Positions 157 through 40,047 of a DNA stretch of 41,079 bases are shown here, in pieces. The position numbers and the translations under genes were made by a program. Every line of letters starts with the position of its first letter. Position 1 is the stretch's first letter. The notes below the pieces were generated by a model. The model had not been told where the DNA came from, ran no database searches, and was given only the letters and a program-made list of their open reading frames with translations. The stretch is from Deltaproteobacteria bacterium (GTDB lineage: Bacteria; Desulfobacterota; DSM-4660; Desulfatiglandales; B25-G16): NCBI GenBank assembly GCA_020349945.1, contig CP070704.1:2214014-2255092 (forward strand). Direction: 5' to 3'.

Positions 157-2184
157 TCACGTGCTCTGATCAGGGGTAATAATGCCTTTCCTCTGGAGGG
201 CCTCCGCCACATCCGAGAGTTTCAATTCCTTTAGCCTGTTGAGGGTAGGAGTCCCTGTTTGATCCCAACCACTTAGCTTGTAATACTCAGCTTTGGCCCG
301 CTCCAGATCATCACGATGATACTGCCTTCCAGCAGCATCCTTGTTCGTGAAGCAGATATCGCGGAGGACATCATCATCGCTGGTTCGCCCCTCTCTCGCC
401 TGAATGGCCCTCTCGAGGGTGCAGAGCATGTCTCCTGCCTCATATGATTCCCCTTCGCTCATCTCAACGCCGGTGACTGCTGTGAACAGCTTGCTTTCCA
501 ACGAGGAGTCACCCACGTGATCCCCGCTGTTGGGGTTATAGAGGAAAGGAAAGGCTACGTCGCAGACGATATAGCTGTCCTTCAAAATGGTACGCTCGAA
601 GAAGCGCTTTGCCACACGAGGCGCCCAATCCCACTTGAGCCCCTTGCCATCAGGTGTAAAGAACTCGGCCGCCTTCTCTGAACCGTATGCGTATTTCATG
701 GTTGGTTTTATGACAGGGATTAACTCCTCGGCCTCGGCAAAGTTGGGCGGATAGCCCAGTGATGTTGCAGCGCCCCATAGCTGAGACATAAAGTTGTGGG
801 ATACCATTGCATCCCGATTGTCCAAGACCCACATAAGCGCCAATGGAGATATGGCATACCCATCAGGAAAACCGCCGTAGTAAAGCCAATGCTCTCGATA
901 GCCCCCAAATTTCCCTGCCCGCGGATATAAAACCCACATCAATTTCTCTGGCTTACCGCCCAGTTTTGTAGCTGCCCTCTGACATCCCTCGGCCAAGAGG
1001 TCACCGAATCCCTCACGATATGCGATCTTCCTGAGAAGCTCAGAAATGAACTCACGTTCACCTATCTTATCCAGTGGAAGTCCCGTATCTTTATTGCTGA
1101 GCACCCCCTCCTCATAACACGCAGTCAGCCAGGGGTTAATTCCATGAATGTCATAGGCGTTGATTCCGTAATAGTCTGCCATGCGCCCGGCTTCCCAGGT
1201 GAGCTTGCTATAACCCTTCTCAGGGTCCTTCATAATGGACTCAAGGTACATGTTCGATTGCGTACATTGGGCCACCCCGCTTGTTATATCCGGCCCCCGG
1301 ACGCGTGTTCGGCATCCGATGGGGCATGCATAACATGCATCGGGAAGGCGCTCGTAACCGGAATTGGGGTCTGAACACAGATTCCAGAGCTCGCCGGGGG
1401 CTCCCGTCAGCTGACCGCGGCCCTGGCCACCCCAAATGTTATACGTGAAGCCGGGCTCATTAGGCTCCAGAGGAGAGCCAGGCTTGGATGGGCGTGAAAA
1501 GAGGGAGCGGATATGACGTGCTACCTCCATCAACTCCTTTGGTCTTGCAACCCGAACTGAGCCCGTTCCCCGGACCACTATGGCCTTCAGGTTTTTGGAG
1601 CCCATGACACCTCCGTATCCCCCTTGACCCGAGGCGTCTCCCGAATCCGTAATGATGATGCCCAGGCGACTCTTTGTCTCGCCTGCCTTCCCAATGGTCA
1701 TGACCCTGGCCTCCTTGCCGTGGACCTTCCAGAGCATCTCCTGGGTGGTAAACGGGTCTAACCCCCAAAGCTTCGAGGCATCTCTGATCTCTGTTTTCCC
1801 GTCCTGAATCCAGATATAAACTGGCTTGCTTGCCTGACCATACACCACCACTGCATCAAAACCCGCCCATTTCAGCTCCGGAGCCCAATGCCCGCCACAG
1901 CCCGAGCGGCAATAGGCCTCAACCGGCGCAGTCTGGGCGGCCTTGCCGACAACCATGAAGCGGCCTGAAGTGGGGGCCATTGTCCCTTGCAGTGGGCCAG
2001 TGGCAAATATCAAGCGGTTGTCAGGATCGAAGGCACCTGCATCCGGTGGGACTTCTTCCCAGTATATGCGCGAGGCAACTCCCCTGCCACCGATATAGGT
2101 GGGGACGTAATCAGAGGTGGGAATATTTTCAAATTTCCTCTCTGTCAGGTTAACTCTCAGTATCTTACCTGCCCATCCATTCAT
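157..2184 (-). CDS. Aldehyde ferredoxin oxidoreductase family protein
   Basis: This 675-residue protein belongs to the tungsten-pterin aldehyde:ferredoxin oxidoreductase (AOR) family, which oxidises aldehydes to acids or runs in reverse. The N-terminus (MNGWAGKILRVNLT, then YIGGRGV) and the 'GPLQGTMAPTSGRF' stretch are family hallmarks. Cys284, Cys287, Cys291 (CxxCxxxC) and Cys541 fit the four ligands of the AOR [4Fe-4S] cluster. Length is close to the family's usual 600-700 residues. The start is fixed by a strong AAGGAGGG site lying inside the last codons of the Fe-S gene upstream, with 5 bases between stop and start, so the two are translationally coupled. It has no signal peptide of its own, whereas its partner has a Tat-type one, so it could be carried across the membrane as a complex. 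The Fe-S/AOR order resembles E. coli ydhY-ydhV. The substrate cannot be told from sequence. Confidence 0.93.
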   Translation of the reverse strand: MNGWAGKILRVNLTERKFENIPTSDYVPTYIGGRGVASRIYWEEVPPDAGAFDPDNRLIFATGPLQGTMAPTSGRFMVVGKAAQTAPVEAYCRSGCGGHWAPELKWAGFDAVVVYGQASKPVYIWIQDGKTEIRDASKLWGLDPFTTQEMLWKVHGKEARVMTIGKAGETKSRLGIIITDSGDASGQGGYGGVMGSKNLKAIVVRGTGSVRVARPKELMEVARHIRSLFSRPSKPGSPLEPNEPGFTYNIWGGQGRGQLTGAPGELWNLCSDPNSGYERLPDACYACPIGCRTRVRGPDITSGVAQCTQSNMYLESIMKDPEKGYSKLTWEAGRMADYYGINAYDIHGINPWLTACYEEGVLSNKDTGLPLDKIGEREFISELLRKIAYREGFGDLLAEGCQRAATKLGGKPEKLMWVLYPRAGKFGGYREHWLYYGGFPDGYAISPLALMWVLDNRDAMVSHNFMSQLWGAATSLGYPPNFAEAEELIPVIKPTMKYAYGSEKAAEFFTPDGKGLKWDWAPRVAKRFFERTILKDSYIVCDVAFPFLYNPNSGDHVGDSSLESKLFTAVTGVEMSEGESYEAGDMLCTLERAIQAREGRTSDDDVLRDICFTNKDAAGRQYHRDDLERAKAEYYKLSGWDQTGTPTLNRLKELKLSDVAEALQRKGIITPDQST

Positions 2185-2189
2185 CTCAA

Positions 2190-2855
2190 CTATCCCTCCT
2201 TAATTATTGGGTACCCGGTCCTGACCCCATCATCCGACCACTTAAATTCCAGTGCCCCATACGGGCAAAACTTCACGCATTGAGGATCGCCAAAGCAAAG
2301 ATGACACTTGATGGCGACGCCGCGCTCCACATCAAAGCGGGGTCGAGGCGGAGTGAATACGCTGCCACAGGCTCCAATGCAATCTTTGGCCCCTATGCAC
2401 TCCTCCTCGTCTACGATTCGTGCGTTTGTTCCAGATTTTTTGTCAATTTTGATGGCCTCTACCGGGCAGGCCTGAAGGCATAAGGGCTCCACGCACTGAA
2501 AGCAGGTGTTGGCCTCGTAATCCCCCTTTAGATAATCCTTCTCGAGTATGACCCGCGCCAGAGCTGAAGAGGAGCGCCCGCTGGAATTATAAGTACTGCA
2601 TACAGCTTCGCATGTGCGGCAACCTGAGCAGAGTTTCTTATCCACGAGCACGACGCCTTTGGCTAACGCCAACTGTTCTCCTTCGGCAAAGGCGACTAGC
2701 TCCAGCATATCCCTTACCCCTGAGCTGCCTGCCAGGAAAGCGAATCCGGCCACTCCAGCCTTTAGGAACTGGCGTCGGCTTATGCACGGGGTCTTCCTGA
2801 CCACCTGCTCCTGACTATCCCTTCTGTCCAGTGATCGATCTTTCTCATTAGCCAT
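2190..2855 (-). CDS. 4Fe-4S ferredoxin-type electron-transfer subunit with Tat signal
   Basis: This 221-residue protein is the likely electron acceptor of the adjacent AOR. Residues 27-31 read RRQFL inside SRRQFLKAGVAGFAFLAGSS, a twin-arginine motif followed by a hydrophobic stretch, as in exported Fe-S proteins. After it come several cysteine groups: CxxCxxCxxxC near residue 77, CxxCxxxxCxxxC near 117, an atypically spaced third group (CIGAKDCIGAC), and CHLCFGDPQCVKFC near the end. This is the HybA/NrfC/DmsB-like layout with about four clusters. It is the first gene of a two-gene operon with the AOR. Tat export is inferred from the motif alone; some family members keep such a sequence without being exported. 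Confidence 0.87.
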   Translation of the reverse strand: MANEKDRSLDRRDSQEQVVRKTPCISRRQFLKAGVAGFAFLAGSSGVRDMLELVAFAEGEQLALAKGVVLVDKKLCSGCRTCEAVCSTYNSSGRSSSALARVILEKDYLKGDYEANTCFQCVEPLCLQACPVEAIKIDKKSGTNARIVDEEECIGAKDCIGACGSVFTPPRPRFDVERGVAIKCHLCFGDPQCVKFCPYGALEFKWSDDGVRTGYPIIKEG

Positions 2856-3706: not shown

Positions 3707-4891
3707 TCACTTGCCAGGGGCCTTGTACCTCTCCTCCCAGTTTTTCACCCCTCCATGCTCAGAGGGCCAGCGATTCTCTTCGGGTACCACCTTGAATTCC
3801 ATCGTCACACTGGCGATACTCTCACCTTTTACCACAATCTGATCTAGATCAGCCACGCCCAAGCCGTGCTTGGCTGCCATCGTAATGTGGCCGATATTTT
3901 TGGGATTGAAGCCCATGATGGCCGTGCAGACTGAATCCACTGCGACCGGGTCAGCCCCCGCAATAATCAAATCCGTCTCTACCGGATCTCCACTCAATGG
4001 ACCATTGCCTTCCATGCCCCAGATCCCGTCTACGACCGTGTAGCCGATCTTAAAGATTGAGGCGACATCGGTAATCCATTCCGGGATCTTTTGGTGCGGT
4101 GCCCCGTATTTGAAGAATCCATACACGCGGCCCGACATCAATCCTACTGCCACATTCTTAAGGCTAGCGGTTATGCCGGTCATGGAATGGGTCTTCAGGG
4201 CCGGCACACTGATAATGCACGTAGCCTCCGTTGCCACTTTAGGCACAGCATACTCAGGGTTGGCCAGGCCCCTGGACTTGACCCATGTGTAGGGCTCGTC
4301 AGTAAAGTCTAATAACTCTACCTTGACCCCCTCCTTTGCCAAGTCCTCGACCATGGCAAGATAGCCGCCCTGCATATATCCTGCCCAGCCATCGCCCGCC
4401 GCCGGACCTTCACCGATGATGATTCTCTTGGCTCCAGATTCCTTGGCCATAACGGCCAAGGCCCTAACGATGCGGGGATCGGTCTGACAAGCCTGAAAGT
4501 CATCCTCGCTCGTCTTTCCGTGATAAAGAAGGAAGAATATGGAGGCCACCAGATTGGGTTTGATCAAGACCACATCCCCGGGTTTTACAGGCCATCCACC
4601 TGCGATCTCCACGGCATTGCGAACCAGTGCCTCAATTTCCCTTTCGCTCTCCTTTGACCATTCAGCGCGAAAATAATCAATATTGCGGGTCTTGTTCACC
4701 CCCTGAGAGAAGGTGCGCTCCCAGTTCATCCTCCAGGTTTCTGCAACCAATTCCTTTTCTTGAGCTTTCAAGATGGCCACTACTGGCTTTCCATCCGCTG
4801 TCGCACTCAGGGATCCCGGCCCAAAAAAGCCGCTCAGTAGTGCAGAGAATAGAAACCCAGCAGCAATCCAGATACCGATTCTTTTGCCCAT
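3707..4891 (-). CDS. Exported DUF362 domain protein
   Basis: This 394-residue protein begins with a Sec-type signal peptide (MGKRIGIWIAAGFLFSALLS, then a small-residue stretch near residue 30). The mature part is a DUF362 domain: GDVVLIKPNLV (106-116), TDPRIV, AKRIIIGEG, PALKTHSMTGITASLKN (230-246), a second histidine in PHQ (His266), ADPVAVDSV (313-321) and AAKHGLG (339-345). DUF362 has no agreed biochemical activity; some members carry ferredoxin domains, this one does not. A paralogue with the same features and its own signal peptide is at 7746-8954. GAGGAG lies about 9 bases before the ATG. It is divergent from the large binding-protein gene, with a promoter for each. I do not know its function; proximity to larEBC makes it a candidate user of that cofactor, which is only a hypothesis. 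Confidence 0.85.
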   Translation of the reverse strand: MGKRIGIWIAAGFLFSALLSGFFGPGSLSATADGKPVVAILKAQEKELVAETWRMNWERTFSQGVNKTRNIDYFRAEWSKESEREIEALVRNAVEIAGGWPVKPGDVVLIKPNLVASIFFLLYHGKTSEDDFQACQTDPRIVRALAVMAKESGAKRIIIGEGPAAGDGWAGYMQGGYLAMVEDLAKEGVKVELLDFTDEPYTWVKSRGLANPEYAVPKVATEATCIISVPALKTHSMTGITASLKNVAVGLMSGRVYGFFKYGAPHQKIPEWITDVASIFKIGYTVVDGIWGMEGNGPLSGDPVETDLIIAGADPVAVDSVCTAIMGFNPKNIGHITMAAKHGLGVADLDQIVVKGESIASVTMEFKVVPEENRWPSEHGGVKNWEERYKAPGK

Positions 4892-5067: not shown

Positions 5068-5319
5068 TTTTGACTGGTAGATGTCTATTATTCTCGATGG
5101 ACTGGAATCTGGCAGCTGGCCATGAGGATTATTGGTCCTTAAACGCAGATGGAGGTGAAATAGGTTTGTTCAATTGCCTCGATGGCTCCGGTCCTTCACC
5201 CAGTTTCTACAATGGCTTTAGTAGAAAGGGTGGAGTTTTCTTAGTTTCTCGGCGAATGCGGAATAATTCGTGTTTATCAAAGTCTCGAGACTGAACAAAA
5301 AGAGGAAGGAGGTCTTACT

Positions 5320-7473
5320 ATGTCTTCAAAGCGATTTTTCGCTCCCTCTTTCACTGTAGCTTTTTACCTTTTCTTGGCGCTCGGTTCCTTGACAATCGCA
5401 GGGGGAGAGCAAGGAGAATCAACCCCTGAAGCTGCCAAATTGAGCATTTTCGGCTATGAAGGAGTCCTTCATGAAATGGATGTGGCTGCTGCTATCAGGG
5501 AGATTAAGGAGCTGGGCATAGGCCAACCCCCGTTTTTGAGGGATTTGGATGCAGGTGAGGGCTACGGGATCAATTTCTGCTTAGGCGGGGTTTTACAGAG
5601 AGGGAAAGATAAGGTATGGGTATTCAAGCTCAAGTTTGAATCCGCGGACCAGGCGCTCTCTAGCATCGATCTGAAGATGCAACGGTCACCGCATAGGGCC
5701 CGGCCCCCTCTCACGATCGAAGATCCGAAGAACTGCAGAAACGCTTACTTCGGGCTCTTCTTCGATGGGACCTACTGGTCCGGTTTCAGGAGGGAAAAGG
5801 ATGTCCTAGCCCTCTTGAAGGGTGCAGTTTCGCAAGAGGATTTCTTTCACATCATGGAGCGGGTGATCCCGGTTACAGACCTCAGCACTGCGGCCGGACC
5901 TGAGCCTATCAGAATTGGCCTCATCGGGACCTTTAGTGGCCCCCTGGAGATCCAGGGGATTGATATGAGAGATGGCGCCCTGCTTGCCCTGAGTGAGGCC
6001 CGTCAGATGAAAGAGATGAGAGGCCGGTCTTTTGAGCTGATCATGGCTGATGACAAACGTAACCCTGACGAAGCGGTCAGGCAGGCCCAGAGGCTCATTA
6101 AATTGGAGAACCTCTGGGCCATACTGGGCCCGGTCAACAGCGCCTGCGCGCTGGCTCTGGTTCCTGTTGTGTCCGAGGCCGGGATTCCCATGATCACCCT
6201 GGCCACTCAGCCAGAAGTAACTCGCCCCCTACGAAGATATGTCTTCAGGGGAAACATGTCTGATGATGATTTAGGCAAGCTCATCGCCGACTACACCAAG
6301 ATCATTCTCGGGGGCGATAGGATTGCGCTCCTCTACGAAGATACGCCTTACGGGAAGGCGGGTATGGAGGTTGTGAGACAGAGGCTCAGGAGGGTTGGAG
6401 TTGAGCCTATGGCAACAGAGAGTTATGTCTCAGGAGACATGGATTTCGGTGCCCAGATGGCCACATTCAAGGAGGCAGGGGCAAGGAACATTATCGTGTA
6501 TGGTACGATGATGGATGCACAGACCATTATGCAGTCGGTCAGGAACAGTGGACTTGGAGCAAGGGTCATTGCCTCCTCAGGCTGGGCATCGACTCATCTT
6601 CTGTCCATGGTCAGCAATGGATTGGATGGCGTGGTCGTTGCTGGTTACGCTCATTTGGGGGAGTTGGATGCTGATATGTTTCCGGCATGGCTGCCCTTCT
6701 ACAAGGCCTTCAGGGGGAAATACGGGCGCAACCCTGACGTGATTGCTGGCTATGCCTATTCCAACATGATGTGCCTTCTGAAGGCGATGGAAAGGGTTCA
6801 ATTCGATGCCGCGAAGATCGTAGAAGGATTGGAGGCAACGGAAAACTTCCAGACCGTTTTCAACCACTTCATTACTTATCATGACGAAAATCATGATGGT
6901 ATGAGATACATCAACTTCTCCACTTACCGGGAAGGCAGGGTCGAGCTGGCCACCAAGGATAAGTCCCTGGATGCGACCAAGATGCGGGAAAAGGGACCGT
7001 GTATAGAGGTGGCAGGGTATCGAGGTGAACTCTCGCCTATGCCGCCAAATACGGCTGCATACTTTGTCATCCACATGGGTTTCGGATATCCACGGTTTAT
7101 GAAAGAGACGAGGGCGATGGGGATGTACGGAGGATTCAGGTCCGATTATGAATTCTATGGGATGAAATACGCCTATTCGGGCACCCTGTTCAAGGGAAAA
7201 GACAAGGTTGTGGTGGTGAAAATGGCATTTAGGTCGCCTGAGCGGGCGATAGCTGTCCTTGATCTGGAGGCCACCAAGCAGGCCTTGGGGGATAAGACTA
7301 CGATCAAAAAGAGACCGGAGGAGATGAGAAATACGGAGGCCGGTATCTCGTATGCCGAAGGGCTGTGGTCGGGTTATCAGCGAAAAGGCCCAACCATCGT
7401 GTTCGCCAAAGGGGAAGCCCCCTTAGAGGATTTGAAGGCGGTCCTGGAGGCCACCCTGCGAGCTCGGAGGTAG
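5320..7473 (+). CDS. Exported binding protein: type I periplasmic domain between two copies of a novel module
   Basis: This 717-residue protein starts with a signal peptide (hydrophobic residues 11-28). Residues about 197-555 are a type I periplasmic-binding domain of the branched-chain amino acid/amide class (IRIGLIGTFSGPLEIQGIDM at 197, then ILGPVNSACALALVPVVSEA). That domain alone is the usual protein. Here it is flanked by two related modules, about 41-182 and 561-714. Both have GYxGxLxxM at the start, a GKDKVxVxKxxFxS segment (94-108 and 626-640), WSGxxR (153 and 683) and an LE/ME-rich end. I do not recognise the module. No permease or ATPase gene is nearby, so it may be a sensor or a solute-binding partner for something other than an ABC transporter. 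An AAGGAGG site precedes the ATG. The second DUF362 gene follows on the same strand. Confidence 0.88.
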   Translation: MSSKRFFAPSFTVAFYLFLALGSLTIAGGEQGESTPEAAKLSIFGYEGVLHEMDVAAAIREIKELGIGQPPFLRDLDAGEGYGINFCLGGVLQRGKDKVWVFKLKFESADQALSSIDLKMQRSPHRARPPLTIEDPKNCRNAYFGLFFDGTYWSGFRREKDVLALLKGAVSQEDFFHIMERVIPVTDLSTAAGPEPIRIGLIGTFSGPLEIQGIDMRDGALLALSEARQMKEMRGRSFELIMADDKRNPDEAVRQAQRLIKLENLWAILGPVNSACALALVPVVSEAGIPMITLATQPEVTRPLRRYVFRGNMSDDDLGKLIADYTKIILGGDRIALLYEDTPYGKAGMEVVRQRLRRVGVEPMATESYVSGDMDFGAQMATFKEAGARNIIVYGTMMDAQTIMQSVRNSGLGARVIASSGWASTHLLSMVSNGLDGVVVAGYAHLGELDADMFPAWLPFYKAFRGKYGRNPDVIAGYAYSNMMCLLKAMERVQFDAAKIVEGLEATENFQTVFNHFITYHDENHDGMRYINFSTYREGRVELATKDKSLDATKMREKGPCIEVAGYRGELSPMPPNTAAYFVIHMGFGYPRFMKETRAMGMYGGFRSDYEFYGMKYAYSGTLFKGKDKVVVVKMAFRSPERAIAVLDLEATKQALGDKTTIKKRPEEMRNTEAGISYAEGLWSGYQRKGPTIVFAKGEAPLEDLKAVLEATLRARR

Positions 7474-7483
7474 ACCTGAGGCA

Positions 7484-7654
7484 CTGACCTTCAAGCTGAT
7501 CTTCAGGTCTGAGCAGAAGGCGATAGAGACCTTAGCCTTTAAGGTGAAAATCTCACAGCAACATGAGATAGAAAGGATATCTGGAGGCAGAAAAGATCTT
7601 GACAGGGAAGGCCCGTATGATATAGTCATTTTGGCTATCCTGCAATTTGGGTAA
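7484..7654 (+). pseudogene. Remnant of a third copy of the flanking module
   Basis: These 56 codons, ending at TAA 7652-7654, have no start codon and lie just after the binding-protein gene in another frame. They encode LTFKLIFRSEQKAIETLAFK, which aligns with VFKLKFESADQALSSIDLK and VVKMAFRSPERAIAVLDLE of that protein's two modules. The match covers about 20 residues and the rest is not recognisable, so this is best read as decayed coding DNA from a former third module or a neighbouring paralogue. Confidence 0.5.
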
Positions 7655-7726: not shown

Positions 7727-7745
7727 AAAAAAGGAGGTGAGATCA

Positions 7746-8954
7746 ATGAAAAAGTTGTTAATCGTATTGACGGCTTTAGGCGTTGCGGCCGTATTTGCTT
7801 CGGTAGCAACAGCGGAAAAGAGCGTCGTCTCCATTGTGAAGTGCAAAAATAAGGCAGACCTGAAGCTGTTAGCCGAAGACTTCCACTTCAATGATGATGT
7901 CTCTCATGAGCAGACCACAGAGTACCACGAAAGGACTGGGGATTATCCACACGTCATCTTTTCTGAGGCAAGCGAGGAGGTGTGGTACAAATACGTGAAG
8001 GAGGCAGTCGAGCTGATTGGCGGCCTGCCCGTGAAACCCGGCGACACAGTTTTGATCAAGCCCAACTTTGTTCTGAGCGCCTATCCTATGATATGGATGG
8101 GATTCGGGGACGACAATAGCTTGCAGGGTGCCTTTGCAGATCCTCGCGCCGCTTTAGCAGTAGCGAAGATTGCTGCTGAAAAGGGGGCAGGCAGGATCAT
8201 TATCGCGGAATGCCCGGCTCTCGGGGATTTTTGGGCAACTGCTCGAAATTACAGCCTGGAATGGGTACAAAAGAGATATCACGATAATGGAATAAAGTAT
8301 GAGCTTATGGATCTGTGCGATAATTGGGAGATGATGCCCGGACTGGGACTGGCCTCGAAAGAATACCCTATCCCCAAGATCTTGAAGGAAGTGGATTGCT
8401 TTGTGCCCATCTGTGCCTTCAAGACCCACGAGTACGCGGGCGTGACTCTGGCCCTCAAGAACATCGGCATCGGCATCCCCTCTGCCAGGGTGATCGGCAT
8501 GTGCAAGTTCGGCCTGCCCCACCAAAATGTTGCCGAGGTGAATGCCGATGTGAATTACATCTCCCAGAGGCTATGTCCGAATCAGGTGCATATTGTCGAT
8601 GCGGTGTATGCCGGAACCTGGGTCCCCGCTGCACCTTACTTCCCCGCTGGCATGATCATAGCAGGCAAAGATGCCGTGGCGGTTGATGCTGTTGGCACTG
8701 CGGTCATGAACCACAATCCCAGAAACATCGGCACAACCCGCCTGGCCGCTAAGCATGGCCTGGGGAAGATGGAATACGACGAGATCGAGGTCGTAGGCGT
8801 TCCTCTCGAGGAAGCTATTATCCAGGACTTCCCTCGCCATCCTTACAAGGCGCGTCTGTGGCCGTGGACGCCAACTATGTATGGAAAGGTCAGCAACTGG
8901 GATCAGTACTATCGACATGACCTTTACGGGGTACCCAATTATCCGCGGTGGTAA
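7746..8954 (+). CDS. Exported DUF362 domain protein (second copy)
   Basis: This 402-residue protein opens with a clear signal peptide, MKKLLIVLTALGVAAVFASV followed by ATAE, suggesting cleavage after ATA. The ATG at 7746 is preferred to an in-frame GTG at 7737 because AAGGAGGTGA ends 5 bases before it and the GTG lies inside that site. DUF362 motifs match the copy at 3707: GGLPVKPGDTVLIKPNFV, DPRAALAVAK, AGRIIIAE, AFKTHEYAGVTLALKN, LPHQN, AGKDAVAVDAVGTAVM, NPRNIG and AAKHGLG. The two paralogues diverge elsewhere, and this one has a tryptophan- and tyrosine-rich C-terminus (NWDQYYRHDLYGVPNYPRW). A strong terminator follows. Function is unknown. Two secreted DUF362 proteins bracketing a binding protein suggests a shared extracytoplasmic role. 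Confidence 0.85.
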   Translation: MKKLLIVLTALGVAAVFASVATAEKSVVSIVKCKNKADLKLLAEDFHFNDDVSHEQTTEYHERTGDYPHVIFSEASEEVWYKYVKEAVELIGGLPVKPGDTVLIKPNFVLSAYPMIWMGFGDDNSLQGAFADPRAALAVAKIAAEKGAGRIIIAECPALGDFWATARNYSLEWVQKRYHDNGIKYELMDLCDNWEMMPGLGLASKEYPIPKILKEVDCFVPICAFKTHEYAGVTLALKNIGIGIPSARVIGMCKFGLPHQNVAEVNADVNYISQRLCPNQVHIVDAVYAGTWVPAAPYFPAGMIIAGKDAVAVDAVGTAVMNHNPRNIGTTRLAAKHGLGKMEYDEIEVVGVPLEEAIIQDFPRHPYKARLWPWTPTMYGKVSNWDQYYRHDLYGVPNYPRW

Positions 8955-9668: not shown

Positions 9669-10517
9669 ATGATTGAAAGGAACAATAATACGATGGATGA
9701 AGAGGCCGCAAGATCGAAAAAGAAGAACGTGGTTTTTCAGCTCAAGAAGTTGGATTCCCTGTTCGTGGCATTCTCAGGGGGAGTGGATAGCACTTTTCTG
9801 TTGGCCTTGGCCCATGAAAGCTTGGGAGAAAAAGTGGTTGCGGTCACGGCAAGCTCGATCATACACCCGGCCTGGGAAAGGGAAGATGCCACCAAATTTG
9901 TCCGAGAAAAAGGCATTCGTCACATTGTTTTTAACTCAGGGGAAATGAGCCTCCCGGAGTTTGTATCCAATGGAGCTGATCGTTGTTACCACTGCAAACG
10001 ACACCTGCTTCAGAGTCTTTTTAAAATCGCAAGGGAGAATGGCAGCAAAAATGTGGCCCACGGCGCCAATGTGGATGACCTGAAGGATTACCGTCCGGGA
10101 TTCAGGGCCGCCGATGAGGCGGGCGTGATGGCTCCTTTAGTTGATGCACAGCTGAGTAAAGAGGAGATTCGTTTTCTGTCTAAAGAAATGGGCCTTTCAA
10201 CGTGGGACGAGCCGGCTATGGCCTGTCTTGCCAGTAGGATCCCATACGGAAGCCCCATTACGGAGGAAAAATTACGGATGGTTGAAGAAGCAGAGGCATT
10301 TCTTTTGGAACAGGGGTTTAAGGACGTCAGGGTCCGGCATCACGGGTCTGTGGCCAGGATAGAGGTGGGCAGCGCACAACAGGGTGACATCATGGGTGAG
10401 GGGCTCAGAAAGGCCATTGTTGATAAATTGCGTGAGGTGGGTTTCGACCATATTGCCGTGGATCTGGAGGGTTACATATCAGGGAAAATGAACCGAGCCC
10501 TGGGGAGAAACCGGTGA
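9669..10517 (+). CDS. larE: LarE, ATP-dependent sulfur insertase of nickel-pincer cofactor synthesis
   Basis: LarE adenylates the carboxylates of pyridinium-3,5-biscarboxylic acid mononucleotide made by LarB and converts them to thiocarboxylates. The 282-residue protein has the PP-loop SGGVDS at 36-41 in FVAFSGGVDSTFLLALAHE, then Cys106 and Cys109 in RCYHCK, and Cys186 in MACLASRIPYG. Some LarE proteins give up one cysteine's sulfur per reaction; others use a [4Fe-4S] cluster held by three cysteines. A CxxC plus a third conserved cysteine would suit the second type (inference). The ribosome-binding site is weak at ATG 9669; the in-frame ATG at 9693 is an alternative. The stop overlaps a GTG opening a possible small gene, and larB and larC follow, so the genes are probably co-transcribed. 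Confidence 0.92.
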   Translation: MIERNNNTMDEEAARSKKKNVVFQLKKLDSLFVAFSGGVDSTFLLALAHESLGEKVVAVTASSIIHPAWEREDATKFVREKGIRHIVFNSGEMSLPEFVSNGADRCYHCKRHLLQSLFKIARENGSKNVAHGANVDDLKDYRPGFRAADEAGVMAPLVDAQLSKEEIRFLSKEMGLSTWDEPAMACLASRIPYGSPITEEKLRMVEEAEAFLLEQGFKDVRVRHHGSVARIEVGSAQQGDIMGEGLRKAIVDKLREVGFDHIAVDLEGYISGKMNRALGRNR

Positions 10518-10681
10518 AGATCCCCATCAGGGGCAGACGGCAATATATGAAGGGAGCTACAGAGTTTATGGAAGACACAGCACAGAACCGTGGAATTATC
10601 TCAAACAAATCCGGATCGAACCTGATAACCTTTGACCTGGAACAATATCCCATGGTAGACTCGAGCCACCTCATGAGCTAA
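10514..10681 (+). CDS. Possible small gene between larE and larB (55 residues)
   Basis: A frame opens at GTG 10514, overlapping the larE TGA by 3 bases, and runs 55 codons to TAA at 10679-10681, ending 15 bases before larB. It would encode a soluble protein (MKIPIRGRRQYMKGATEFME at the start) rich in polar residues, with no cysteine. It resembles nothing I know. The coupled position favours a gene; the lack of a recognisable family and of a strong ribosome-binding site argues for caution. An antisense frame also covers this stretch but lacks support. Confidence 0.35.
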   Translation: MKIPIRGRRQYMKGATEFMEDTAQNRGIISNKSGSNLITFDLEQYPMVDSSHLMS

Positions 10682-10696
10682 CCAAGGGCAGGAGAG

Positions 10697-11515
10697 ATGG
10701 ATATCAAATACCTAAGGAACCTATTGGAGCAGGTGCAAAGCGGCCGGATGGATCTGGAGGCTGCCATGGATGAGCTCAAAAAGCTGCCTTTCCAAGATCT
10801 GGGCTATGCCAAGATCGACAACCACCGCCCCATCCGGAAAGGTGTCCCCGAGGTGATCTTTTGCCAGGGAAAGAGCATTGAGCAGATCCAGGGCATTGTC
10901 AAGGCCATGTCCCAAAATCACTCCAACATCCTTGCTACCCGCGCCAGCCGTGAGGTATTTGAGGGGGTCCAAAAGGTGGCAGGACAATGTCAGTACCACG
11001 AGAAGGCCCGAATTGTGGTGATCAGGCCCCAGGTGGTTGAAAAGGTGGGGAATATAGCTGTGGTGAGCGCTGGTACCTCTGACATTCCTGTTGCCGAAGA
11101 GGCCGCTGTTACTGCGGAGGCACTCGGAAATCGGGTGACCAGGATCTACGATGTTGGGGTGGCTGGAATTCACCGGCTTTTGGATGCCAGGGAGGATCTC
11201 TTTCAAGCCAATGTGGCCGTGGTTGTTGCTGGTATGGAAGGGGCCCTGGCCAGCGTGGTAGGAGGGCTGGTGGCCTGTCCGGTAATAGGGGTTCCCACCA
11301 GTGTCGGGTATGGTGCCAGCTTCGGAGGTATAGCCGCACTGCTCACCATGCTCAATAGCTGTGCCTCCGGTGTATCGGTCGTGAATATCGATAATGGCTT
11401 TGGTGCAGGCTATCAGGCCAACCTGATCAATAAGATTGCCGTAGGGAAGGCCCGAAAAGGCCCTGTTGAGGAGCCGGTTGGAAGAAAGAGAAAACTGTCC
11501 TTGGCCAAGGTTTAG
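10697..11515 (+). CDS. larB: LarB, pyridinium-3,5-biscarboxylic acid mononucleotide synthase
   Basis: LarB carboxylates the pyridine ring of nicotinic acid adenine dinucleotide and hydrolyses the dinucleotide, the first step of nickel-pincer nucleotide synthesis. This 272-residue protein has the PurE-like core expected of the family: VAVVSAGTSDIPVAEEAAVT, VAVVVAGMEGALASVVGGLV, then CPVIGVPTSVGYGASFGG and NIDNGFGAGYQAN. The N-terminal helical part (residues 1-80) is also typical. Length matches the family. AAGGG lies 8 bases before the ATG. It follows larE and precedes larC by 31 bases. Its last 129 bases are duplicated exactly at the left edge of the window. Confidence 0.95.
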   Translation: MDIKYLRNLLEQVQSGRMDLEAAMDELKKLPFQDLGYAKIDNHRPIRKGVPEVIFCQGKSIEQIQGIVKAMSQNHSNILATRASREVFEGVQKVAGQCQYHEKARIVVIRPQVVEKVGNIAVVSAGTSDIPVAEEAAVTAEALGNRVTRIYDVGVAGIHRLLDAREDLFQANVAVVVAGMEGALASVVGGLVACPVIGVPTSVGYGASFGGIAALLTMLNSCASGVSVVNIDNGFGAGYQANLINKIAVGKARKGPVEEPVGRKRKLSLAKV

Positions 11516-11526
11516 CGGTTGTTAAC
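11387..11526 (+). repeat. Direct repeat, right copy
   Basis: This is the second copy of the 140-base exact repeat at 1-140. Here it is the larB 3' end followed by larC, whereas the left copy is followed by the convergent AOR gene. The spacing between copies is 11,386 bases. Confidence 0.97.
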
Positions 11527-11546
11527 ATCTCAGTTGTGAGGGAAGC

Positions 11547-12569
11547 ATGAAGGTTGCCTATTTTGACTGTTTTGCAGGGGCGAGCGGGGACATGATCCTG
11601 GGATCGCTTATAGATGCCGGTCTGGATGTCGAGGAGCTCAAGAAGGAGTTGGGGAAGCTTTACCTCACCCATTATGATCTCGGAGCAAAGAAGGTTATCA
11701 AGAAGGGAATCGGCGGCACTCAGGCAGTAGTGACTGTGGATGAAGACCACCACGGACACCATCATCACCATTTGAGTCATATCGAGGAAATCATAGACAA
11801 AAGTGCGTTGGAGAGATCGGTAAAGCAGAAAGGCGTACAGATCTTCAGGCGATTGGCTGAAGCTGAGGCTAAGGTTCACCGCACCACCATCGAGCATATC
11901 CATTTCCATGAAGTGGGTGCGATGGATGCCATTATCGATGTGATGGGTGCGGTGGCTGGGTTAGTCGCCCTGGGCATTGAAAGGGTTGATTGCTCGCCCC
12001 TTCATGTGGGAACTGGGACAGTTGAGTGCTCCCATGGCACACTACCCGTGCCTGCCCCGGCCACTGTAGAACTCATCAAGGGAAAACCTATTTATTCTAC
12101 CGGGGTTAAGGGAGAGCTCCTTACACCCACGGGTGCAGCGATTCTGACAACTGTTTCCTCCAATTTTGGTCCCATGCCGGCCATGACTTTGGAAAAGATC
12201 GGATATGGGGCGGGAACATCGGAGCCGGCCATCCCCAATCTGCTCAGAGTGGTCATCGGGGAAGCTCGGGATGAATTAGAAGGCTATCACATGGAACGGG
12301 TAGCTGTGGTTGAGATCAATACCGATGAGATGAATCCCCAGGGGTGCGACAATCTTGTCCAGAAGATCCTGGACATGGGTGCCGTGGATGTGTTTCTAGC
12401 CCCGGTTCAAATCAAGAAAAACCGGACCGGAACCTTGCTCACGGTCATTTGTCTGCCCGAGATGGTGGGGAAATTCTCTGATTTTCTTTTAAGGGAGGCG
12501 GCTACAAAGGGATTGAGATGGCGGATGGATAATCGAATCAAGGCTCAGGCAACAAAAAAGGTGGCCTAA
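11547..12569 (+). CDS. larC: LarC, nickel insertion protein, short form
   Basis: LarC uses CTP to insert nickel into the bis-thiocarboxylate nucleotide, finishing the cofactor. The 340-residue protein starts MKVAYFDCFAGASGDMILGS as in the family. A histidine-rich patch DEDHHGHHHHHLSH (residues 67-80) probably binds nickel. HIHFHEVGAMDAIIDVMGA, the LLTPTGAAIL segment and INTDEMNPQ follow. Full-length LarC is usually near 400 residues; this one stops at GLRWRMDNRIKAQATKKVA, just after the position of the family's TxGxR motif, so the last 60-70 residues are absent. No continuation is visible downstream before the convergent HesA gene. GAGGGAAG precedes the ATG. The loss could abolish activity or mark a short-form LarC. 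Confidence 0.9.
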   Translation: MKVAYFDCFAGASGDMILGSLIDAGLDVEELKKELGKLYLTHYDLGAKKVIKKGIGGTQAVVTVDEDHHGHHHHHLSHIEEIIDKSALERSVKQKGVQIFRRLAEAEAKVHRTTIEHIHFHEVGAMDAIIDVMGAVAGLVALGIERVDCSPLHVGTGTVECSHGTLPVPAPATVELIKGKPIYSTGVKGELLTPTGAAILTTVSSNFGPMPAMTLEKIGYGAGTSEPAIPNLLRVVIGEARDELEGYHMERVAVVEINTDEMNPQGCDNLVQKILDMGAVDVFLAPVQIKKNRTGTLLTVICLPEMVGKFSDFLLREAATKGLRWRMDNRIKAQATKKVA

Positions 12570-12593: not shown

Positions 12594-13493
12594 CTAATCT
12601 GATTTTAATGAATTACGTTTTTCGCAGACAAACTCATTCAGCTGACCTGTCTCCAGATCGAGATGGACTATAGTATGTCTGAAAATCTTCCCCCTCTTCA
12701 GGATGATTTTGAGGACCTCCATGGCCTGGAGAGCCGCGAACATGGAAGGCGTTAGAGCGGGAACCCCGAGAATGGCTTCCGGGCTCTTCGCATCATTTCC
12801 CTTTACCTCCCCATCTCCATAGAGACATTTAAGTCCCTCATCATCGGGAAAGATAGTCATCATCCAACCCTCGAAGCCGGCCAATGCGCCGTGGACCAGG
12901 GGAACCCCTAATTGCTTGGTTGTGCTTTCGAGCACAAGTCGGTCTGGGATATTGTCCAGGGCGTCTACAACAACGTCCGAACCGACCAATATTTCCGGTG
13001 CATTTAAGGGGTCAAGCCCCGTCTGATAGGGCGTTACTTTTATCCCCGGATTAATCGAAGCGACAACGTCAACCGCCACTTTGGATTTTGGCCTCCCTAG
13101 TGACTTTCTACTGCACAAGGCCTGGCGATTGAGATTGGTTTCATCAAAAAGGTCAGGGTCTACCACAATCAGGTGCCCGATACCGACCCTTGCGAGCAAC
13201 AAAATAACCTGCCCGCCCAGGCCCCCTGCACCAACCACAGTGACCCTAGACTCTGCCAGCCTGAGTTGTTCCTGGACCGATATGAGCTCCCTGTTGCGGA
13301 TATAGCGGTAGGGATTGATCCCAAGCCTCAGGGCCTCTGTGTAGACCTCATGAACAGTGCGCCTAGATTCACCTCCTATTTTGAAGGCCTGATCATCATC
13401 CAGAACAAGTACCTCGCGTCCGGCTTGATCCGTGATGATTTTTGATCTAGTTTGTATCAGCTGATGAAGCTCTGTTTGTGTCATTTGACTCAT
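12594..13493 (-). CDS. HesA/MoeB/ThiF family adenylyltransferase
   Basis: E1-like enzymes of this family adenylate the C-terminal Gly-Gly of a small sulfur carrier. Starting at ATG 13493, which follows AGGGGGAAG, the protein has 299 residues; an upstream in-frame ATG at 13604 adds 37 residues unlike the family. The nucleotide-binding motif VVGAGGLGGQVILLLARVGI, the acidic LIVVDPDLFDETNLNRQ segment and DVVVDALDNIPDR are all present. The paired CxxC zinc motifs of MoeB are not visible, which fits HesA-type members. A MoaD/ThiS carrier is encoded divergently 323 bases away and is the obvious partner. Such pairs often accompany AOR genes, so a role in tungstopterin synthesis is likely but inferred. 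Confidence 0.88.
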   Translation of the reverse strand: MSQMTQTELHQLIQTRSKIITDQAGREVLVLDDDQAFKIGGESRRTVHEVYTEALRLGINPYRYIRNRELISVQEQLRLAESRVTVVGAGGLGGQVILLLARVGIGHLIVVDPDLFDETNLNRQALCSRKSLGRPKSKVAVDVVASINPGIKVTPYQTGLDPLNAPEILVGSDVVVDALDNIPDRLVLESTTKQLGVPLVHGALAGFEGWMMTIFPDDEGLKCLYGDGEVKGNDAKSPEAILGVPALTPSMFAALQAMEVLKIILKRGKIFRHTIVHLDLETGQLNEFVCEKRNSLKSD

Positions 13494-13707
13494 CTTGACT
13501 TCCCCCTGTCCTCTATTTGTTCTCCAGGTATGCACGCCCTGGATTTTCCAAGGAGGGTAAAATAACTCCTTCCGTACAATTATGTTTTGATCGCTACAAG
13601 GCAATTTACCTGAAAATCAGGGGGACGTCAAAGTCAGGTTTAACTCTTCGAAAGCTTTGCATTTCTTCTTCTCCCCACCAAGGGCAGGGGAGGCATGAAA
13701 AAACTAT

Positions 13708-13737
13708 TTGAGCAGGGCACTCAAAACAGGGTATAAT
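13708..13737 (+). promoter_or_regulatory. Candidate promoter for the MoaD/ThiS gene
   Basis: A perfect TATAAT (13732-13737) is preceded after 18 bases by TTGAGC (13708-13713). It lies 79 bases before the ATG at 13817. The rest of the 323-base divergent gap 13494-13816 shows nothing I recognise. Confidence 0.5.
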
Positions 13738-13816
13738 ACGGACCCCGAGATGCATAGAAGTATTCATATTGGCGTGCTTTATTTGTCAATTGGGAGGTAG
13801 GGGAGATAAGGAAGGA

Positions 13817-14056
13817 ATGAAAGTAAGATTAAATTTGTTTGCTTCTCTTGCACGCTATATGCCCAATAAAGCCAAAGGGAATTCTTGGACTGTGGAGATC
13901 AGTGAAGGAACCAGGGTCAGGGAACTTTTGGAACAATGTAAGATTCCCAAAGATACCGTCAAGCTGGTATTCTTGAATGGGGTTCATGCCAATGGCGATG
14001 AAATCCTGAATGATGGGGATAGGGTTGGTGTTTTTCCTCCTATTGGTGGGGGATAA
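13817..14056 (+). CDS. MoaD/ThiS family sulfur carrier protein
   Basis: This 79-residue beta-grasp protein begins MKVRLNLFASLARYMPNKAK and ends VGVFPPIGGG, the Gly-Gly tail that is adenylated and thiocarboxylated. FLNGVHANGDEILNDGDRV is the usual strand-turn before the tail. The ATG at 13817 is chosen because the family starts here; an upstream in-frame start at 13769 would add a cysteine-containing stretch that does not belong. A purine-rich AAGGAAGGA abuts the ATG. It pairs with the HesA-type enzyme encoded divergently, supplying sulfur for molybdopterin-type dithiolene formation (tungstopterin for the AOR) or for another thiolation. Confidence 0.87.
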   Translation: MKVRLNLFASLARYMPNKAKGNSWTVEISEGTRVRELLEQCKIPKDTVKLVFLNGVHANGDEILNDGDRVGVFPPIGGG

Positions 14057-16702: not shown

Positions 16703-17119
16703 CTACGATATAATGCGGTGCACCGTAGCAAGGCCCCATTTGGAGAAAATGATGACGGCCAGGGCAGTGAAGGCCTCGCGATCCCCCGCTATCAGCGGGA
16801 GCTTTATGCCGGCGAGAACCGCAATGATGAGCAGCAGAGCTAGGGCACCAAGTGCACCCACGAGGATAGCAATCGGGTGTGTCCAGTATGATTTTGTGTT
16901 GGGCAACCTGACACTGGTACTCAACCTGATAAGAAACCCCATCACGGCCAGGGCAATGAAGGCGGCACGGTCTCCCGAAATAAATGGAACTTCCTTGCCA
17001 GTGAGGTGGGCAAACACGAGCAACACCGCCAAGACCCCTAGTGCGCCTGCGACAATATACACCCCATTTATCAAAAGAGGACTCATGTAGACGATACAAC
17101 TCCCCTTCTTTATGTTCAC
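16703..17119 (-). CDS. Membrane protein built from two copies of a helical hairpin
   Basis: The GTG at 17119 has AAGGAG 9 bases upstream, giving 138 residues; ATGs at 17152 and 17140 lack good sites. Two repeats of about 50 residues match closely: VAGALGVLAVLLVFAHLTGK then FISGDRAAFIALAVMGF, and VGALGALALLLIIAVLAGIK then LIAGDREAFTALAVIIF. Each holds two hydrophobic segments separated by a conserved GDR(A/E)AF loop, predicting four membrane helices. Duplication of a half-unit is typical of small transporters and channels, but I recognise no family. It precedes the radical SAM gene on the same strand. Confidence 0.65.
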   Translation of the reverse strand: MNIKKGSCIVYMSPLLINGVYIVAGALGVLAVLLVFAHLTGKEVPFISGDRAAFIALAVMGFLIRLSTSVRLPNTKSYWTHPIAILVGALGALALLLIIAVLAGIKLPLIAGDREAFTALAVIIFSKWGLATVHRIIS

Positions 17120-17746
17120 GGTATGATTCTCCTTTCCCATCCCTGTGCTCATAGCACATTGCTGACACTGAGTACAATAAGAACGTATCAGGCGTATCAG
17201 TTGAGCTATAGTGCGATCATGTTACCGTTCAACCCTCGCCTTTACCATATGACAACTTGCGGATGAGGTTCAGCCCAAAGAGGATGAGCAGGATAGGGAA
17301 AACCGGCGGGTTACACAAAGATGTCGAGTCGATATAATATAGCGTGTTAGGCGAGAGGGAAGAAGAGAGATAAAATATTCAGTGGAGGCCACGAGCAGGT
17401 TTGAAACCTTGGATAATCAGTGAAACGAGTATGCGCTAATCTTACGGATAAAGATTTAATGATGAAGCATATAAGATCAAGATGCCTCGTGAAATTATAC
17501 CTAATAAGGCCCAAATAAATGATAAGCATTCTTATAGTACAGGAATGTCTCTTGGGGCCTAAGGTTTTCACTTTGATGATGGATGGGGATTTATTTTTGA
17601 AGAGCAACCTGGTAAAGAGATAAAAAGTCCCTTCTCCCTGCTTTTCGAGCTGAAAAAAGGGTTATTGTTCGAGAACCTGCACAAAAGGGAGATATGAGCA
17701 GATAATTTACCGAGAATTACGCTGGATTGCTGGATGAATTGTTAAA
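17120..17746. other. Gap without a recognised gene
   Basis: The frames here have no ribosome-binding site and no family resemblance. On the minus strand near 17228-17345 a short frame ends in a hydrophobic stretch and basic tail (FPILLILFGLNLIRKLSYGK), like the end of a membrane-anchored protein, but it has no start, so it may be a gene remnant. Confidence 0.4.
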
Positions 17747-38174: not shown

Positions 38175-39374
38175 ATGCTCAAAATGAAACACGAGGATAA
38201 AACTAAAAAAGGGCAACCCATAAATGAATTGATGGAACTGCGCCAAAGGATTACCCAATTAGAGCAAGAACGCAAACGAGCCGAGGATACACTTAGAAAA
38301 AGCGAGGAGAAACTAAAGAATATATTGCACGGCTCACCTATTCCAACATTTGTCATTGATAACAATCATAGGGTTACTTACTGGAATAGGGCATTGGAGG
38401 TATACAGTGGGATCAAGGCAAAGGACATAGTTGGCAGTGACCGGCAGTGGAAGGCCTTCTACAATGAAAAGAGGCCGTGCATGGCTGATTTGCTGGTAGA
38501 TGGCAAGACAGAAGATATTCCCCAATGGTATCCAGGAAAGTATAGGGCCTCTGATCTGATAGAGGGGGCACATGAGGGCATAGATTATTTTCCCCAGCTG
38601 AGCCACGAAGGGAAATGGCTCTATTTTACAGCAGCCCCACTGAGGGATTCGGGTGGAAGATTCATTGGGGCCGTAGAAACACTTCAAGATATAACAGAGA
38701 CAAAAAAGTCCGAGGAACAGATAAGGGTGTTATCGAGACAGAACATAGAGATCCAGGAAAGGGAGAGGGAGTCTTTATCAAGGGAGATTCATGATAACAT
38801 TGGTCAGCTATTAGTCTCATTAAAGATGGGTCTTTCCATGACGTATAAAAAGATACCGAAAGAACTCTCTACCATAAAGGACCAATTGGGTGAGCTTTCA
38901 TATCTTGTGAACAGAGCGATAAAGGAAATCAGGGAACTCTCCCATGCGCTCCATCCACCTTTGATTGAAGATCTGGGGCTTATACCCGCTCTGGAGGGGC
39001 TTTGTCAAGACTTTAGATCATACTCGGAGATTAAGATTCAATGGAATTTTGAGCAGATTGAAAAACCTCTTCAGTCTGTAACCAATATCACCATATATAG
39101 ATTTTTCCAGGAGGGGTTAAGCAATATTTTAAAACATAGCAGGGCGACAAAGGCATATTTAAGCCTAACACATTCGGATAGTGCGATAAGCGCTGTGATT
39201 GAGGATAATGGCGTAGGATTTGTAGTGGATGATGCCCTTTCGCCTTTACAAAATACAAAGTCCCTCGGCCTCATTAGCATGAGGGAGAGATTGGCCCTCA
39301 TCGGCGGGGAACTAAAGATCATATCGACGCCGCGAAAGGGCACCAAGATTACAGCACGTTTACAAAGGGATTGA
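38175..39374 (+). CDS. PAS-domain sensor histidine kinase (NarL-type)
   Basis: This 399-residue cytoplasmic kinase has no membrane segment. A short coiled coil (residues 18-50) leads to a PAS domain (about 45-175: SPIPTFVIDNNHRVTYWNRA), then a HisKA_3 dimerisation domain with phospho-acceptor His206 in LSREIHDNIGQLLVSLKMGL. A GHKL ATPase domain follows (YRFFQEGLSNILKHSRATKA, VIEDNGVGF, LGLISMRERLALIGG). The PAS domain, next to WYPGKY and EGAHEGIDYFPQLSHEGKW, may bind a small ligand or haem; no cofactor residue is certain. The start has no clear ribosome-binding site, and an in-frame ATG at 38184 is an alternative. The response regulator follows after 4 bases. Confidence 0.9.
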   Translation: MLKMKHEDKTKKGQPINELMELRQRITQLEQERKRAEDTLRKSEEKLKNILHGSPIPTFVIDNNHRVTYWNRALEVYSGIKAKDIVGSDRQWKAFYNEKRPCMADLLVDGKTEDIPQWYPGKYRASDLIEGAHEGIDYFPQLSHEGKWLYFTAAPLRDSGGRFIGAVETLQDITETKKSEEQIRVLSRQNIEIQERERESLSREIHDNIGQLLVSLKMGLSMTYKKIPKELSTIKDQLGELSYLVNRAIKEIRELSHALHPPLIEDLGLIPALEGLCQDFRSYSEIKIQWNFEQIEKPLQSVTNITIYRFFQEGLSNILKHSRATKAYLSLTHSDSAISAVIEDNGVGFVVDDALSPLQNTKSLGLISMRERLALIGGELKIISTPRKGTKITARLQRD

Positions 39375-39378
39375 AGGT

Positions 39379-40047
39379 ATGAGGGAGAAGATAAGAATTG
39401 TTTTGGCTGATGACCACCGGATCTTCCGTAAGGGTCTAAGATCGCTCCTTTCAGAAAAGGAGGGCATCGAGGTTTTGGCAGAGGCTGACGACGGGGATGA
39501 GGCCCTGAAAATGGCAAGAAAATACAGACCAGGAATAGTCATTATGGACATAGGAATGCCGAAGATGGACGGGATAGAGGCCGCCCGCCAGATCAGGGAA
39601 AGACTTCCAGGCACAGAGGTCATTATTCTCTCTATGCATGCCAAGAAGGCATACATCGATGAGGTCTTGAAGGCGGGTGCCAAGGGATATGTTTTAAAGG
39701 ATTCTGATGAGGAAAATCTGATAGCCGCTATCAACACCGTACATAATGGCGGTTACTATCTTGACTCACCCATTGCAGATCAAGTTTTGTCTGATTATTT
39801 CGGGGGCAAAAGAAAAAGAGAGCTAAAGGAACAATCGGATCCCCTCTCAGAGAGGGAAAAGGAGGTGCTGAGGCTCTTGGCTCAAGGTCACTCCAACCAA
39901 GAGGTTGCCGATATCTTATGTATCAGCAGAAAAACGGTAGAAAATCATAGGGCACATATTGTACGTAAAACAGGGGTTCAAGGTCAGGTAGGTCTCACAA
40001 AATATGCCGCCCGTATAGGCCTTATTGATTTAGATCTGTGGAACTAG
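39379..40047 (+). CDS. LuxR/NarL-type response regulator
   Basis: This 222-residue regulator has a receiver domain with DDH at 11-13 and phospho-acceptor Asp57 in IVIMDIGMPKMDGIEAARQI, then KGYVLKDSDEENLIAAINT. The C-terminal LuxR-type helix-turn-helix reads PLSEREKEVLRLLAQGHSNQ and EVADILCISRKTVENHRAHI. It is the partner of the kinase 4 bases upstream. A terminator follows at 40116, so this pair forms its own operon after ppsA. Its targets are unknown; no binding site was identified. Confidence 0.94.
   Translation: MREKIRIVLADDHRIFRKGLRSLLSEKEGIEVLAEADDGDEALKMARKYRPGIVIMDIGMPKMDGIEAARQIRERLPGTEVIILSMHAKKAYIDEVLKAGAKGYVLKDSDEENLIAAINTVHNGGYYLDSPIADQVLSDYFGGKRKRELKEQSDPLSEREKEVLRLLAQGHSNQEVADILCISRKTVENHRAHIVRKTGVQGQVGLTKYAARIGLIDLDLWN

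Follow-up and report, generated by a model that had tools for sequence, protein, structure and literature searches.

Gene organisation of the locus

The window, that is, the whole stretch of 41,079 nucleotides analysed here from the 2.53-Mb genome of an anaerobic bacterium, contains an intact open reading frame at positions 5320–7473 of the forward strand that encodes a protein of 717 amino acids. In the order of the protein, and all on the forward strand, its parts are a signal-peptide-like N-terminus (approximately residues 1–28; positions 5320–5403), an N-terminal module (residues 41–183; 5440–5868), a type I periplasmic-binding domain of the Leu/Ile/Val (LIV) type (residues 196–534; 5905–6921), and, at the C-terminus, the other copy of the module (residues 561–714; 7000–7461). 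Read from the sequence, the start of the protein resembles a cleavable signal peptide, with no lipobox cysteine. The modules were delimited by their alignment to each other and by HMM hits, and the binding domain by a match to the Pfam family Peripla_BP_6 (174 bits against a cut-off of 31.7; E = 9.1e-51). A reading of the letters alone, made before this analysis (the sequence-only reading), had placed a binding domain at about residues 197–555 between two modules, and the Pfam boundaries come near to these.

A gene for an exported-type DUF362 protein (DUF362-1; 3707–4891, reverse strand; PF04015, E = 1e-42) is divergent from this sandwich gene. Downstream of the sandwich gene are a second DUF362 gene (DUF362-2; 7737–8954, forward strand; PF04015, E = 5e-25), a gene for a PEGA-domain protein, and larE, larB, and larC (9669–12569, forward strand), which are assigned to the synthesis of the nickel-pincer cofactor by NCBIfam equivalog hits above the cut-off. 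Both DUF362 proteins begin with a signal-peptide-like N-terminus.

The two-sided layout, for which the sequence-only reading knew of no described family, is without a counterpart as far as we searched, but a one-sided precedent exists and lowers the surprise. Dret_0059 of Desulfohalobium retbaense (PDB 5ERE) likewise joins a further extracytoplasmic domain to a type I binding domain, in that case a dCache domain at the C-terminus only (PMC8694187). The sandwich protein has no Cache match in Pfam, and Dret_0059 has no sequence match to the module. The sandwich is real, and none of the libraries searched describes its module. The protein is nevertheless rare and confined to one lineage, with an ordinary binding core and a function that we infer.

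Sequence and distribution of the repeated module

The two flanking segments are homologous copies. Residues 41–183 and 561–713 aligned with a BLOSUM62 local score of 167, against 28 ± 4.5 (maximum 51) in 1000 shuffles of one side, and share 27–28% identity. Each of the three motifs that had first drawn attention to the repeat (GYxGxL, GKDKVxVxKxxFxS, and WSGxxR) was found, and each lies inside this alignment. A profile made from the two copies matched exactly these two sites and nothing else across the 2.53-Mb genome. Neither copy matched a Pfam family at E-values up to 10, the NCBIfam search returned nothing except one chance-level hit, and no PDB chain matched by sequence beyond the chance level, so that the module, previously taken to be unknown, was not traced to any described sequence family.

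When the order and 395 genomes drawn evenly from the phylum were searched, the module was found in three genomes of a single order: this genome, one of the same genus (G003), and one of another family (G080). A scan of genome contigs with the single sandwich protein matched only contig L016, which is, by its sequence, the same contig as in G080. The L016 relative is about 70–75% identical to the sandwich protein. In both G003 and G080, the contig ends within the binding-domain part of the gene, leaving the N-terminus beyond the contig, and the full sandwich is therefore documented only once. The L016 relative, from the metagenome-assembled genome Meg22_24_Bin_103, also has what looks like a frameshift in the module (L016 positions 550–1000), which may be an assembly error. 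No relative was encoded in the viral contigs and plasmids, and nothing was found among viral structures. Weak HMM hits in two further genomes (G374 and G206; L023 and L024) fell in frames that, by eye, look like TruA-type pseudouridine synthases sharing an SGWQR-like stretch. Another hit (G043; L021, E = 0.008) did not correspond to a module gene and was lost with a better profile.

Predicted fold of the module

The AlphaFold2 model of the C-terminal module alone (five rows; mean pLDDT 72.7, pTM 0.72; two loops unreliable) supports, with moderate confidence, an alpha/beta fold. In the full-length model, the binding domain was predicted confidently and both flanks with low confidence. The sequence-only reading had proposed predicting each copy separately; in the full-length model, the order of strands and helices proved to be much the same in both flanks, at the low confidence of these parts.

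A Foldseek search of the PDB with the C-terminal module model returned the extracellular domain of the kinase PknH first (4esq; E = 2.2e-3, probability 1.00), followed by TiME and RseB, the counterpart of which is MucB (RseB: E = 9e-3, probability 1.00). These matches are marginal, with none below E = 1e-3 and TM-scores of about 0.43–0.45. The nearest solved folds, the PknH sensor domain and the N-terminal domain of RseB/MucB, are both extracytoplasmic and sensor-like, and the model may resemble such domains; we treat this as a lead and not as membership. Unlike PknH and RseB, the modules are not linked to a kinase or an anti-sigma factor, and they have no sequence similarity to either protein, the PknH_C and RseB-like profiles being absent from the Pfam matches of the module copies up to E = 10. 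The two intramolecular disulfides of PknH (PMC3601408) have no equivalent in the core of the C-terminal module (residues 562–714), which contains no cysteine; the N-terminal module contains two. The PknH sensor domain has a large cleft for which small-molecule binding has been proposed (PMC3601408), and lipid signals are reported to act on the MucA–MucB pair (PMC7400510).

These folds bear on the possibility that the protein is a soluble co-receptor that senses a ligand through its binding domain and engages a membrane sensor through its modules, in the manner of LuxP and LuxQ. That the closest folds are sensor or regulator domains fits such an arrangement, as do the fusion of a binding domain to dCache in Dret_0059 (PDB 5ERE; PMC8694187) and the presence of a histidine kinase and a response regulator in the window (38175–40047). 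However, the kinase and regulator lie about 31 kb away, the kinase has PAS domains and no recognised periplasmic sensor domain, and a sensor gene is adjacent in neither of the two genomes that show the locus, which makes a co-receptor of this kind rather unlikely in our view.

A remnant of a second gene and the probable origin of the layout

Comparison with the genome of the same genus disclosed a remnant of a second binding-protein/module gene directly downstream of the sandwich gene, a feature that is new in this analysis. The 48-bp segment at positions 7491–7538 (forward strand) aligned with the module gene of G003 at the DNA level with a local score of 61, against 16.5 ± 2.3 (maximum 30) in 2000 dinucleotide shuffles. 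At the protein level, it reads KLIFRSEQKAIETLA against KLIFRSEEEAVEALS in G003, with a score of 53. The spacer 3' of the remnant also aligns with the G003 spacer as far as DUF362-2, including a TTGACA element. A suspected remnant upstream of the sandwich gene (approximately 5210–5290) did not rise above chance when tested.

The binding protein of this locus is only 35.9% identical to that of G003, whereas the identity of the neighbouring proteins is much higher (DUF362-2, 88.6%; LarE, 75%; LarB, 84%; LarC, 81%; ThiF, 74.5%), as is that of the L016 relative from another family. For this reason, the G003 gene is probably not an orthologue of the sandwich gene. Because the remnant lies directly downstream and G003 retains a gene of that type before DUF362-2, the ancestral cassette was probably a tandem pair before DUF362-2, consisting of gene A (the sandwich) and gene B (the G003 type), of which B was deleted here. 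In a quartet tree of the modules, in which the two L016 pieces shared a row, each at its own alignment columns, the N-terminal module grouped with the G003 module and not with its own C-terminal partner (support 100, for four short unrooted sequences). In addition, a 10-residue insert common to the two other C-terminal modules is absent from the N-terminal module and the G003 module. To judge from these sequences, the sandwich probably goes back to tandemly arrayed binding-protein/module genes, with the loss of one binding domain between two modules; an array that loses one binding domain would yield exactly the order of signal peptide, module, binding domain, and module.

The same history could be taken to mean that recombination in a decaying tandem array produced the sandwich as a by-product, without a function of its own. 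The deletion remnant directly downstream, the apparent frameshift in the module of the L016 relative, and the strong divergence of the gene in the same genus (35.9% identity) are in keeping with decay. Nevertheless, the frame is intact over 717 codons, and the C-terminal module is approximately 69% identical to that in the genome of a different family. Moreover, the two modules have kept their core motifs despite differing at more than 70% of positions, which indicates long selection. We therefore consider a functionless by-product very unlikely.

The binding domain and its ligand

The central 340 residues of the sandwich protein belong to the family of the LIV/HAAT substrate-binding proteins, which includes LivJ, LivK, and the aromatic-acid-binding proteins of Rhodopseudomonas, and the predicted fold of the domain fits LivK (3td9) and LivJ (4gnr) with a TM-score of 0.87, normalised to the target. 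It differs from these proteins in having two extra domains and no linked ABC genes, and in the residue aligned with their amino-group contact. S274 and A295–T296 align with the same residues of 4gnr, at the Ser and Ala-Thr positions that we take to be the contacts of the ligand carboxylate in LIV-type proteins. In contrast, the Asp common to 4gnr, 3td9, and 3ipc, presumably the contact of the amino group, is replaced by S420, and Ser is also found in the relatives L016 and L019. The Asp or Glu at the alpha-amino contact that is a feature of LivJ-like amino-acid-binding proteins is thus absent. These residues suggest that the ligand may be a small carboxylate with no alpha-amino group. The loss of the Asp is not unusual in itself, because some paralogues in the genome, which encodes at least 13 other LIV-type binding proteins, also lack it.

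In line with the sequence-only reading, which had noted that no transporter genes accompany the protein, no ABC permease or ATPase was detected among the window proteins scanned with Pfam. Binding proteins and permeases can be encoded at separate genomic sites, so the protein might still be an ordinary ABC-type import protein for branched-chain or aromatic acids, with its permease elsewhere and its modules serving to stabilise it or to bind the cell wall. The clear Peripla_BP_6 match, the PDB relatives that bind amino and aromatic acids, and the many paralogues in the genome all agree with import. However, a module on either side of the binding domain could get in the way of docking to a permease, no permease or ATPase was found in the window, and the conserved neighbouring gene encodes an exported DUF362 protein. 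On balance, import appears somewhat unlikely, and since no transporter genes were found nearby, capture or sensing of a molecule outside the cell is more probable than simple import.

The DUF362 neighbours and the possible role of the protein

The association with DUF362 also occurs in the one further genome that has this DUF362 gene. DUF362-2 was found in two of the 85 genomes of the order (E ≤ 1e-90), namely this genome and G003, and among 395 genomes drawn from the phylum, with G003 not among them, in this genome only (E ≤ 1e-70). Both carriers have DUF362-2 directly downstream of a binding-protein/module gene, which supports the link to DUF362 that the sequence-only reading had raised as a check. 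The order larE-larB-larC-thiF is also conserved between the two genomes. In G080, the genes downstream of the relative on L016 are Rieske-like and cytochrome b-like, and not DUF362. A promoter-like element (TTGACA-16-TATAGT; 7599–7626, forward strand; a consensus match only) precedes DUF362-2, and TTGACA also occurs at the aligned place in G003. Because DUF362-2 has this promoter-like site of its own, it need not be co-transcribed with the sandwich gene.

We tentatively prefer to read the sandwich protein as an exported orphan that binds a solute and whose two accessory domains, of a sensor or docking type, would report its ligand or hand it on, plausibly to DUF362. The exported protein would capture a solute with its LIV-type domain, a step supported by the family, with no transporter genes of its own, and the domain would close on a small carboxylate with no alpha-amino group. 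The two alpha/beta modules would then report or present the bound ligand to an extracytoplasmic partner, most plausibly the neighbouring exported DUF362 proteins. Of the roles proposed by the sequence-only reading, adhesion found no support in any part of the analysis.

DUF362 and LarA belong to one Pfam clan (CL0471; PMC11770544), and the His-x9-Lys motif of LarA has a counterpart at the same place in the neighbouring exported DUF362 proteins. In both DUF362-1 and DUF362-2, which lie beside larE-larB-larC, this motif and a later His are in register with the cofactor-binding residues of LarA. The Lar_N profile matched one DUF362 frame of this genome (E = 6.7e-5), and an hhalign comparison of DUF362 with LarA was weak (E = 0.17) and in the expected register. 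The literature searched described no extracytoplasmic nickel-pincer enzyme or cofactor-bound DUF362 protein, and we treat the likeness to LarA as a lead only. An enzymatic version of the scheme, in which the sandwich protein is the substrate-capture subunit of an undescribed pathway outside the cytoplasm, where exported DUF362 proteins, as distant relatives of lactate racemase, use the nickel-pincer cofactor made by larE-larB-larC and the modules dock the binding domain onto them, is most improbable. The genome carries three LarA-type genes at other sites; the cofactor genes therefore need not serve DUF362, and it is less likely that larBCE serve DUF362 alone.

If the preferred reading is correct, the module represents an undescribed, lineage-restricted family of extracytoplasmic domains, the two-sided layout is an addition to a very common receptor fold, and the protein points to a use of solute-binding proteins besides import. 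The conserved link to an exported DUF362 protein would also provide an entry point to a widespread, functionally uncharacterised family in the clan of lactate racemase.

Several other genes in the vicinity were noted. A third DUF362 gene lies upstream of the window (L026:5533–6720, forward strand; G000:C1, approximately 2210532–2211719), and its twin-arginine-like N-terminus (RREFFKDLAKYGGAGLAA) would suggest that the protein is exported after folding. The segment at 157–2855 (reverse strand) encodes an aldehyde ferredoxin oxidoreductase and an Fe-S protein with a weak twin-arginine signal match, and that at 12594–14056 encodes ThiF and a ThiS/MoaD-like protein; the genes of these two segments are possibly parts of a cofactor-synthesis island. 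In G003, too, a related oxidoreductase-like gene lies close by (L025:8861–10597). Finally, a frame of 149 amino acids at 16703–17152 (reverse strand) contains two similar hydrophobic segments, VAGALGVLAVLLVFAHLTGKEVPFISGDRAAFIALAVMGF and LVGALGALALLLIIAVLAGIKLPLIAGDREAFTALAVIIF, and is a possible duplicated membrane repeat.
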